DNA of 33,589 nt from Acidobacteriota bacterium (lineage in GTDB: Bacteria; Acidobacteriota; Terriglobia; Acidiferrales; UBA7541). How positions within the stretch are numbered: position 1 is the first letter of the stretch; every line of letters starts with the position of its first letter. Of this stretch, positions 15,767 to 18,426 are shown piece after piece. A model generated the notes under the pieces. The model saw only the letters and a program-made list of their open reading frames with translations, had not been told where the DNA came from and searched no databases. The DNA lies in NCBI GenBank assembly GCA_021818865.1, contig JAKASX010000037.1, forward strand, positions 1-33,589, written 5' to 3'. A program made the translations under genes and the position numbers.

Positions 15767-17314
<1,548 letters not shown>

Positions 17315-17327
17315 CCCTCGTTCCATG

Positions 17328-17365
17328 GCACAACGGGTCGGCCTTTCACGACCGGCCCGCTGTGC
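17328..17365 (+). terminator. Hairpin after degP
   Basis: The arms are GCACA-A-CGGGTCGG (17328-17341) and CCGGCCCG-C-TGTGC (17352-17365). They pair over 13 positions with one A/C mismatch and one G-U, around a 10-base loop. There is no real U-run afterwards (TAAAATTTCC). The hairpin overlaps the proposed promoter of the tRNA array. Confidence 0.5.
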
Positions 17366-17371
17366 TAAAAT
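17344..17371 (+). promoter_or_regulatory. Candidate promoter of the tRNA-Val array
   Basis: TTTCAC at 17344-17349 and TAAAAT at 17366-17371 are 16 bp apart, and TG-C before the -10 makes it an extended -10 promoter. Transcription would begin near 17378, about 11 bases before the first, broken tRNA-Val copy. The intact tRNA would then be expressed only by transcription through that copy. Confidence 0.42.
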
Positions 17372-17388
17372 TTCCAAGCCAAACGTCC

Positions 17389-17456
17389 AGGCCCGTAGCT
17401 CAGTTGGTTAGAGCGTCCCGGCCCGCCGGGAAGGTCTGACGGTTCGAGCGGCACCA
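17389..17456 (+). pseudogene. Broken tRNA-Val copy (unit A)
   Basis: The first 27 bases match the intact tRNA-Val at 17467 exactly (acceptor 5' strand, D-arm). Where the 17-base anticodon arm should be, there is a 16-base palindrome at 17416-17431. Then AGGTCTGACGGTTCGA resembles the variable and T-arm region with one extra G, but the 3' end (GCGGCACCA) does not pair with the acceptor 5' strand. It cannot fold as a tRNA. It sits first behind the putative promoter. Confidence 0.8.
17416..17431. repeat. 16-bp palindrome replacing the anticodon arm of unit A
   Basis: TCCCGGCCCGCCGGGA has 7-bp arms around a CC centre. The same arms, TCCCGGC/GCCGGGA, occur with a TT centre at 17810-17825, in the same position of another tRNA-like unit. 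A related one is at 17845-17860. Confidence 0.8.
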
Positions 17457-17466
17457 AATGTTCGCC

Positions 17467-17543
17467 AGGCCCGTAGCTCAGTTGGTTAGAGCGCTACCTT
17501 GACACGGTAGAGGTCTACGGTTCGAATCCGTACGGGCCTACCA
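17467..17543 (+). tRNA. tRNA-Val (anticodon GAC)
   Basis: The 77-base gene folds completely: acceptor AGGCCCG with CGGGCCT, D-arm GCTC/GAGC, anticodon stem CTACC/GGTAG around the loop TTGACAC (anticodon GAC, reading GUC), a five-base variable region, T-stem TACGG/CCGTA with loop TTCGAAT, discriminator A and an encoded CCA. It is the only one of three related copies that can fold. A T5 run follows at once, as part of ATTTTTCAAAAAT at 17543-17555, and may end its transcript. Confidence 0.95.
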
Positions 17544-17553
17544 TTTTTCAAAA

Positions 17554-17805
17554 ATGCCTTTCCTCTACATCCTCCAAAGCCAATCCTCGGGCCGTTACTA
17601 CATCGGCTCGACCACCGACCTCGCTCGCCGCATCTCCGAACACCATCGCGATCACACCCCCTCCACACGCAATCGCGGTCCGTGGTCTCTCGTTTATCAG
17701 GAAGAATTTCGCACGTTACCCGAGGCCCGCCGCCGCGAACTGCAAATCAAGAGTTGGAAATCCCATCGGACGATCTCGGAACTGGTGAACGGCAACTCGG
17801 CTTAG
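17554..17805 (+). CDS. GIY-YIG nuclease-family protein
   Basis: The 83-residue protein is a stand-alone GIY-YIG domain of the YhbQ/UvrC-N type. The motif reads Y5-I-L and Y16-I-G. Arg25/Arg26 and His30 follow, and Glu62 in RRRELQIKSWK is the metal-binding catalytic position. GPWSLVYQEEF is the usual central strand. Such domains nick or cut DNA and occur in homing endonucleases and repair proteins. Oddly, the ATG lies 10 bases after the CCA end of tRNA-Val, with no Shine-Dalgarno sequence and inside a small A/T palindrome. Its TAG stop falls in the D-arm-like start of the next tRNA fragment (TTAG at 17802-17805). A decayed second copy follows at 17889. Confidence 0.85.
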   Translation: MPFLYILQSQSSGRYYIGSTTDLARRISEHHRDHTPSTRNRGPWSLVYQEEFRTLPEARRRELQIKSWKSHRTISELVNGNSA

Positions 17806-17809
17806 CGCG

Positions 17810-17825
17810 TCCCGGCTTGCCGGGA
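17810..17825. repeat. 16-bp palindrome replacing the anticodon arm of unit C
   Basis: TCCCGGCTTGCCGGGA, 7-bp arms with a TT centre. It differs from the unit A palindrome only in the central dinucleotide. Confidence 0.8.
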
Positions 17826-17844
17826 AGGTCTACGGTTCGACCTG

Positions 17845-17860
17845 CCCCGACTCGTCGGGG
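17845..17860. repeat. 16-bp palindrome inserted in the T-loop of unit C
   Basis: CCCCGACTCGTCGGGG, 7-bp arms with a TC centre. With the other two it fits one pattern: pyrimidine-CCCG-purine-C, two bases, G-pyrimidine-CGGG-purine. It is the core of a 21-base block absent from the intact tRNA. Confidence 0.8.
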
Positions 17861-17888
17861 GATCCGTACAGGCCTACCACTCACACCC

Positions 17889-17985
17889 ATGGCCTTCGTC
17901 TACATCTTGCAGAGCCAGTCCAGTTGTCGTTGCTACATCCGTTCGACCACCGATTTTCACCGCCCCGCGAACTTCAAATCAAAAC
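17889..17985 (+). pseudogene. Decayed GIY-YIG copy
   Basis: The start MAFVYILQSQSSCRCYIRSTTD parallels the intact gene (MPFLYILQSQSSGRYYIGSTTD), but YIG has become YIR. The central region between STTD and the catalytic-helix segment is deleted. The remaining CGCGAACTTCAAATC (the RELQI equivalent) is in another frame and ends in TGA. It begins 10 bases after the ACCA of unit C, the same spacing as in unit B. A non-homologous open frame continues to 18056. Confidence 0.75.
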
Positions 17986-18015
17986 CTGAGAGTCAGCAAA
18001 GCTGCCATTCCCTTT

Positions 18016-18426
18016 TTATCTCGCTTCGAGTCCCACCTGATATTGCTCGTCGCTGACTTTTTCCATCCATTCGACCACCTTGCCGTCGAGTCTTTCCTGA
18101 ATCGCGATATGCGTCATCGCCGTTCTCGGCGCGGCTCCATGCCAGTGCTTTTCGCCCGGCGGAATCCACACCACGTCTCCCGGCCGAATTTCCTCGATCG
18201 GCCCACCCCACCGCTGCGCCCGGCCGCAGCCGGCCGTAACGATGAGCGTTTGCCCGAGCGGATGCGTGTGCCAAGCCGTTCGCGCACCCGGCTCAAACGT
18301 TACACTCGCTCCCTGCACGCGCGCCGGATCCGGCGCCTGAAACAGCGGATCGACACGCACGACGCCGGTGAACCAATCGGCCGGCCCTTTCCCGGAAGCC
18401 TGTGCCCCAACTCTCTTGATCTCCAT
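18016..18426 (-). CDS. Cupin, hydroxynitrile-lyase-like (Mn-type)
   Basis: The 136-residue single-domain cupin starts [21 protein letters not shown]. From memory it is very close along its length to the metal-dependent hydroxynitrile lyase of Granulicella tundricola, an acidobacterium. The metal ligands reported there are all present: His53, His55, Gln59 ([10 protein letters not shown]) and His94 (GEKHWHG). That enzyme cleaves or forms cyanohydrins such as mandelonitrile in vitro; its natural role is unclear, and many sequence relatives are annotated only as cupins or carboxymuconolactone-decarboxylase-associated proteins. The ATG at 18424-18426 is preferred over a GTG three codons upstream because AAGGAG lies 8 bases before it and it gives the family N-terminus. 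Confidence 0.85.

Follow-up and report, generated by a model that had tools for sequence, protein, structure and literature searches.

A palindrome in the T loop of a tRNA-Val half in an acidobacterial genome and the probable displacement of this half by a small tRNA-carrying GIY-YIG nuclease unit

The window analyzed in this study, meaning the whole stretch of 33,589 nucleotides of contig JAKASX010000037.1 from an Acidobacteriota bacterium, contains an intact tRNA-Val(GAC) gene (unit B), which represents the sole full match to this tRNA across the genome, together with two partial copies (units A and C) and a small GIY-YIG nuclease gene (Table 1). Unit A spans positions 17389–17456 in total. 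An older tRNA-Val was split in its anticodon arm, with units A and C representing its displaced halves, and the inserted unit between them is approximately 410 bp long (17416–17825), comprising a hairpin, the intact tRNA-Val, the 83-aa GIY-YIG gene, and a further hairpin. The 5′ half of unit C has been reduced to about 14 degenerate bases shared with the end of ORF 1, the stop codon of which lies inside the D-loop remnant. ORF 2, located behind unit C, shares 72% identity over 25 aa with ORF 1, and this older, decayed nuclease gene 3′ of unit C indicates that the invasion is nested. Since the flanks of the two halves in the window differ as well, the newer unit is deduced to have entered the tRNA of an older unit. 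Direct or inverted repeats of at least 30 bases were not found in the window, and an Rfam scan of positions 17300–18020 matched the tRNA alone, giving no indication of a group I intron.

Table 1. Features of the split tRNA-Val locus in the window.
Feature	Start	End	Strand	Support
Unit A, displaced 5′ half of the older tRNA-Val	17389	17415	+	blastn-short, tRNA nt 1–27, 100% vs intact tRNA-Val
Left hairpin TCCCGGCCCGCCGGGA, replacing the anticodon arm; left end of the unit	17416	17431	+	
Decayed inner remnant of the tRNA 3′ half, unit A	17432	17456	+	by-eye reading vs tRNA-Val
Unit B, intact tRNA-Val(GAC)	17467	17543	+	ARAGORN; Rfam RF00005, 72.1 bits
GIY-YIG ORF 1, 83 aa, single domain, UPF0213-like	17554	17805	+	Pfam GIY-YIG 3.8e-15; UPF0213 structures
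Decayed D-arm remnant, unit C (cf. CAGTTGGTTAGAGCG)	17796	17809	+	
Right hairpin TCCCGGCTTGCCGGGA, replacing the anticodon arm; right end of the unit	17810	17825	+	
Unit C, beginning of the displaced 3′ half (variable region, then the T arm's 5′ side)	17826	17840	+	blastn-short, tRNA nt 45–59, 100%
T-loop insert of 21 bases with hairpin CCCCGACTCGTCGGGG (17845–17860)	17841	17861	+	
Unit C, remaining 3′ half up to CCA	17862	17879	+	blastn-short, tRNA nt 60–77, one mismatch
ORF 2, degenerate start of an older GIY-YIG gene, formerly 3′ of the older tRNA	17889	17963	+	profile E 6.2e-5

A previous sequence-only reading of the window had described unit C as an otherwise intact tRNA copy into the T loop of which a discrete palindromic block had been inserted. 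The interruption of the tRNA-Val copy by 21 bases is real: TTCGA (17836–17840) is followed by CCTGCCCCGACTCGTCGGGGG (17841–17861) and then by ATCCGTACAGGCCTACCA (17862–17879), and removal of the block restores the T arm and acceptor strand of the tRNA-Val with one mismatch in the last 18 bases, as compared to positions 17467–17543. The core, CCCCGACTCGTCGGGG, had been called a perfect palindrome; its symmetry is in fact imperfect, with 7-base arms flanking a two-base center (TC), and as a hairpin it forms a 6-bp stem with a 4-base loop. Unit C is far from intact otherwise, its 5′ half being nearly gone and its anticodon arm consisting of a second palindrome, TCCCGGCTTGCCGGGA; the same kind of replacement, by TCCCGGCCCGCCGGGA, is found in unit A. 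Further genomic copies had been named as the mark of an inserted unit. No second copy of the exact 21-mer was detected in the genome, even at three mismatches, which speaks against the literal block as a repeated unit and sets it apart from REP-like elements with their many genome copies. A looser class of palindromes (CCCGAC-n-GTCGGG), not identical to the block, is dispersed in this genome with 25 copies, compared to 7 for the control. The idea of a discrete insertion nevertheless retains part of its value, because palindromes placed precisely in the T loops of tRNA copies, including inserts derived from dispersed repeats, occur in relatives (see below). The main structure had been missed: the 'copy' is a displaced tRNA half produced by a tRNA-carrying GIY-YIG unit, the hairpin of which took the place of the anticodon arm, and this 3′ half acquired the T-loop palindrome as an additional change, either later or in parallel.

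Three other small GIY-YIG genes were found in the same genome, distributed over two loci adjoining tRNA-Arg and tRNA-Ile, the latter harboring two nuclease genes. Both loci feature the order tRNA, nuclease gene, and a tRNA copy whose anticodon arm holds a hairpin. Residues Y5, Y16, G18, R26, H30, and E62 are invariant across the three aligned genome copies of the GIY-YIG protein; conserved motif residues within a recognizable GIY-YIG domain (Pfam, 3.8e-15) are what is expected of a homing endonuclease. At the locus L019 (minus strand, ~1480–1720), a second, more distant GIY-YIG gene was observed behind the tRNA-Ile unit, surrounded by repeats of a different set (GCCCGCTcagAGCGGGC and similar). 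In the window's genome, TCCCGGC-n-GCCGGGA hairpins and 3′ fragments of tRNA also lie behind the tRNA-Cys (L006) and tRNA-Sec (L009) genes, where no nuclease gene is present.

To place the locus in a wider context, homologues were searched with the protein query alone, the tRNA being no part of the search, and one genome per species was retained, resulting in 80 loci from named genomes. A tRNA on the same strand was located within 250 bp upstream of the nuclease gene in 52 of the 80 loci (median distance 44 bp) and solely downstream in 10 more, with none on the opposite strand, compared to a null expectation of 0.2% obtained from positions elsewhere within the same loci. Partial tRNA copies upstream of the nuclease gene were predominantly 5′ halves and those downstream 3′ halves (42:7 vs 13:61; Fisher p 3e-14). 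Hairpins placed exactly at the site of the anticodon arm, or part of it, were found at 72 junctions in 46 loci, affecting Asn, Arg, Val, Ala, Ile, Leu, Pro, Asp, Met, and His tRNAs. A stem of at least 5 bp was present at 44 of the 46 junctions with exact tRNA flanks, not all of which are independent, indicating that these hairpins do not represent chance occurrences. The hairpin loci are labeled as 14 phyla, one label (Heimdallarchaeota) belonging to a short metagenome contig that may be misbinned, and further acidobacterial loci feature the same anatomy. All or most of the close genomes are draft metagenome-assembled genomes (MAGs); the recurrence includes isolate genomes (Pedobacter, Pontibacter).

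The flank identity beyond the tRNA was nearly all-or-none from locus to locus, as expected if some units are external in origin and others arose from local duplication. At L030, L045, and L086, displaced 5′ halves were found repeated two to three times in tandem upstream of the intact tRNA, together with their duplicated 5′ flank and with a period of ~95–105 bp. Upstream of the tRNA-Val at L022, the displaced 5′ half contains a third palindrome, CCTGCCTGccgCAGGCAGG, which separates its acceptor strand from its D stem.

Stem pairs 1 to 6 of the anticodon-arm hairpins were Watson–Crick pairs in 29–31 of the 31 loci with exact flanks, several pair types being represented (for example, pair 4 was C-G in 24 and G-C in 6 loci). 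Within a locus, the left and right hairpins differed at 1 of 144 outer bases compared to 12 of 64 center bases, with one of the 12 left/right pairs (L033) being uninformative, as it corresponds to the native tRNA-Gly arm in neighboring intact genes. Few exact-flank junctions were dropped for poor stems, and selection during the search thus does not explain this contrast. In the nuclease tree, comprising 106 rows, only 80 columns, and many open forks, the tRNA type required 33 changes, compared to at least 55 in 200 shuffles, and within Acidobacteriota 7 changes, compared to at least 10. The hairpin class changed 5 times, compared to at least 12 in shuffles. The Val, Arg, and Ile nucleases of the window's genome fell into separate clades, each together with nucleases residing at the same tRNA in other genomes. 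Both the adjacency to the presumed target and the tracking of this target by the clades correspond to the behavior of homing endonucleases. TCCGCC hairpins are common to the Arg units of Acidobacteriota and one Asn clade of Thermodesulfobacteriota, and the other Asn clade features TCCCG hairpins. As the hairpin class follows the nuclease clade, the anticodon-arm hairpin belongs to the unit. Both the contrast between stem and center and the link between hairpin and nuclease could also reflect co-inheritance without recognition.

Changes in the T arm were found to be more variable. The native T arm was kept in 19 of the 33 displaced 3′ halves with a recognizable end, and T-arm loss is therefore not required. 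In six loci (L030, L036, L045, L052, L065, and L072), the arm was replaced outright by a hairpin, which in L045 and L052 (CCCCGAC-n-GTCGGGG) is near the CCCCGA-n-TCGGGG of the window. In other loci, including the window, a discrete insert interrupts the T loop after GTTC or GTTCGA. A dispersed palindrome class, CCCTTCGRC-n-GCTCAGGG, includes the T-loop inserts of L064/L216 and L204; it has ~50 copies in G024, compared to 2 for the control, and 'unit insertion' is consequently a fair description in those genomes. Thus, the T loop is a recurrent site of palindromes, which in some genomes are ordinary dispersed repeats. Dispersed palindromic repeats were noted in G022, G024, and G019, namely TTCGRC-n-GCTCAGG with 154 copies in G022 and 50 in G024 (controls 0 and 2, respectively), and TCCCGR-n-YCGGGA with 133 copies in G019 (control 7). 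The possibility that the dispersed TCCCG palindromes are products of these nucleases was considered and rejected for now, since their copy number does not track the nuclease number.

These results bear on the question of whether the T-loop palindrome of the window is a dispersed REP-like repeat of the ordinary kind that inserted into a tRNA pseudogene and is unrelated to the GIY-YIG unit. This is possible, if on balance doubtful: the inserts of L064/L216 and L204 demonstrably belong to the dispersed palindromes of their own genomes, and TCCCGR-n-YCGGGA hairpins are dispersed in the window's genome (62 copies vs 7 for the reversed-pattern control), whereas the uniqueness of the exact block, the position of the hairpins in the T-arm region of displaced 3′ halves, and the six arms fully replaced by a similar stem (CCCCGAC in the case of L045 and L052) argue against this reading. 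Alternatively, the hairpins may act in RNA, the displaced half with its hairpin arms giving the nuclease mRNA a folded 3′ terminus that serves in protection or processing. Such a role would agree with the constant strand and proximity of ORF and tRNA copies and with stems being maintained while centers drift. However, the same hairpins occur in upstream halves that no ORF precedes, unit C folds as single-stranded DNA only weakly better than shuffles (z −1.57), and no Rfam match besides the tRNA was obtained, making an RNA function improbable.

Comparison of related genomes provided further insight into the history of the locus. The orthologous locus between htrA and tRNA-Val is empty in the congener G001 and occupied in G000, G002, and G003; this presence/absence pattern is as expected for a homing endonuclease and fits gain and loss alike, and the empty locus of G001 could represent a clean loss instead. 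At this locus, G003 combines the tRNA with a truncated nuclease gene, G002 has the tRNA, the nuclease gene, and a hairpin half, and the window shows the nested arrangement. Nested copies were found in the window and at L053, L066, and L030. In the relatives G007 and G012 (L186 and L189), a hairpin and the tRNA-Val 3′ half were observed ~27 bp behind the intact tRNA-Val with no nuclease gene between them, representing either mini units without an ORF or remnants of deletions.

The congener G004 carries its tRNA-Val elsewhere, where it was invaded by a tyrosine-integrase island (Phage_integrase, 2.2e-12). At this locus (L250; G004, C82:106500–120300), two islands of ~6 kb lie in tandem, the integrase gene being part of the tRNA-proximal island and adjoining the tRNA. 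The displaced halves (nt 27–77 and 33–77) feature native anticodon and T arms, with a piece of a GIY-YIG gene behind each. Displacement by an integrase leaves hairpins absent, and G004 is a useful control for the view that the tRNA halves are scars left at the attachment sites of tyrosine-integrase islands that have since lost their genes. Islands of this type do rebuild the tRNA, a fragment of which ends up displaced (PMC4383910), which is also the configuration of the window with its intact tRNA-Val and displaced halves, and the G004 island is located at tRNA-Val in a congener. The native arms of its displaced halves, the absence of an integrase from the units (the 410-bp unit encodes solely the 83-aa nuclease), the junction hairpins in 46 loci, and the constant nuclease family contradict this origin, which was rejected after comparison with G004 and appears very improbable. 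Even less credible is the view that tandem tRNA copies decayed by chance or were misassembled; the short repeats and the draft state of the MAG would be in its favor, but the same anatomy was recovered from tens of separate assemblies covering many phyla, including the Pedobacter and Pontibacter isolates.

The closest parallel among known systems is SegB of the phages T4 and T6, a free-standing GIY-YIG homing endonuclease encoded within a tRNA cluster (PMC13096335, PMC2988022). SegB cuts inside tRNA genes, prefers the motif RAWTSGAAC, and drives duplication and amplification of the tRNA-segB segment (PMC13096335). Both systems feature a GIY-YIG nuclease gene beside tRNA genes. However, the units described here are chromosomal, encode a single-domain protein of 83 aa, carry one replacement tRNA each, and are accompanied by hairpins in place of tRNA arms and by displaced tRNA halves. 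A tblastn search of the window protein against 50,697 phage records yielded no match at E 1e-5, which excludes only a close relationship with SegB. In reverse complement, the SegB motif matches GTTCGAATC, a T-loop sequence of the intact tRNA-Val in the window and the very one that the 21-base insert interrupts in unit C. This match favors, but does not establish, the removal of cut sites as a role of the palindromes in the T loop and anticodon arm.

Islands carrying integrases at tRNA genes (Islander, PMC4383910) are similar in that the split tRNA is made whole again with element DNA and a fragment of it is displaced; in contrast, the present units are ~0.4 kb long, lack an integrase, feature arm-replacing hairpins, and displace 5′ as well as 3′ halves. 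Group I introns with homing endonucleases in tRNA genes (PMC3984707) share the tRNA target and the nuclease gene, whereas here the tRNA is uninterrupted and the Rfam scan found no intron. REP-like palindromes are similarly short and GC-rich, and some T-loop inserts are copies of such repeats, but the anticodon-arm hairpins are placed exactly in tRNA copies and track the nuclease clade. Single-domain GIY-YIG proteins of the UPF0213 type (1zg2, 1ywl) belong to the same sequence family as the window protein; however, only part of this broad family resides at tRNA genes, weaker homologues in relatives mostly being located elsewhere.

Taken together, the palindrome of the window is probably (approximately 60%) one of two hairpins in a tRNA-Val half that was displaced by a minimal, homing-type, tRNA-carrying element. 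This interpretation builds on the observed anatomy, its recurrence, the stem conservation, the linkage of nuclease, tRNA, and hairpin, the empty orthologous locus, and the nested copies; it further presumes nuclease activity and a function of the hairpins, the latter being its weakest step. The GIY-YIG protein would cut the tRNA gene, and repair of the break from a unit-bearing chromosome, using the outer tRNA halves as homology, would install the unit by homing. The carried tRNA would keep the host alive, as the unit supplies an intact copy. Afterwards, the outer halves would match the resident tRNA well while the inner parts decay, in line with the observed pattern. With less certainty, replacement of the anticodon arm and interruption or replacement of the T arm may strip the nuclease target from the displaced halves, and may also block recombination between tRNA copies and hence deletion of the unit. 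The palindromic stem may likewise serve as the binding site of the nuclease or as the end of the unit, and the T-loop palindrome may be an inactivating insert, drawn in some genomes from dispersed palindromic repeats. Two observations count against this scheme: the intact tRNA of the unit retains both supposed target arms, leaving immunity of the unit without explanation, and the 83-aa protein features no obvious DNA-binding domain outside the nuclease fold.

The unit, which combines an extra intact tRNA with a small nuclease gene and with hairpins where tRNA arms would be expected, is widespread and apparently undescribed, and it has the appearance of a minimal selfish element that exploits tRNA genes. 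Searches of the open-access literature for GIY-YIG proteins with tRNA genes or palindromes yielded just fungal mitochondria, phage SegB, and general GIY-YIG work, which is weak evidence for novelty, and tRNA adjacency is not mentioned in the available part of a GIY-YIG superfamily survey. More tentatively, the units might constitute an undescribed class of minimal tRNA-parasitic elements in at least a dozen phyla, in which a single-domain, structure-selective GIY-YIG nuclease would recognize hairpin-forming DNA, namely tRNA-gene arms and the matching palindromes at the element ends, and the element would move by tRNA-arm replacement and hold an essential tRNA hostage.

If the proposed explanation is true, these units would be among the smallest self-spreading elements known, living on tRNA genes across many bacterial phyla, and would account for many of the stray tRNA fragments and hairpins residing beside tRNA genes. 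They would also offer a natural system for studying how a nuclease of 83 residues chooses its target and by what means an element avoids being cut by its own enzyme, and the tRNA-linked behavior of the GIY-YIG nuclease SegB would thereby be extended from phages to chromosomes.
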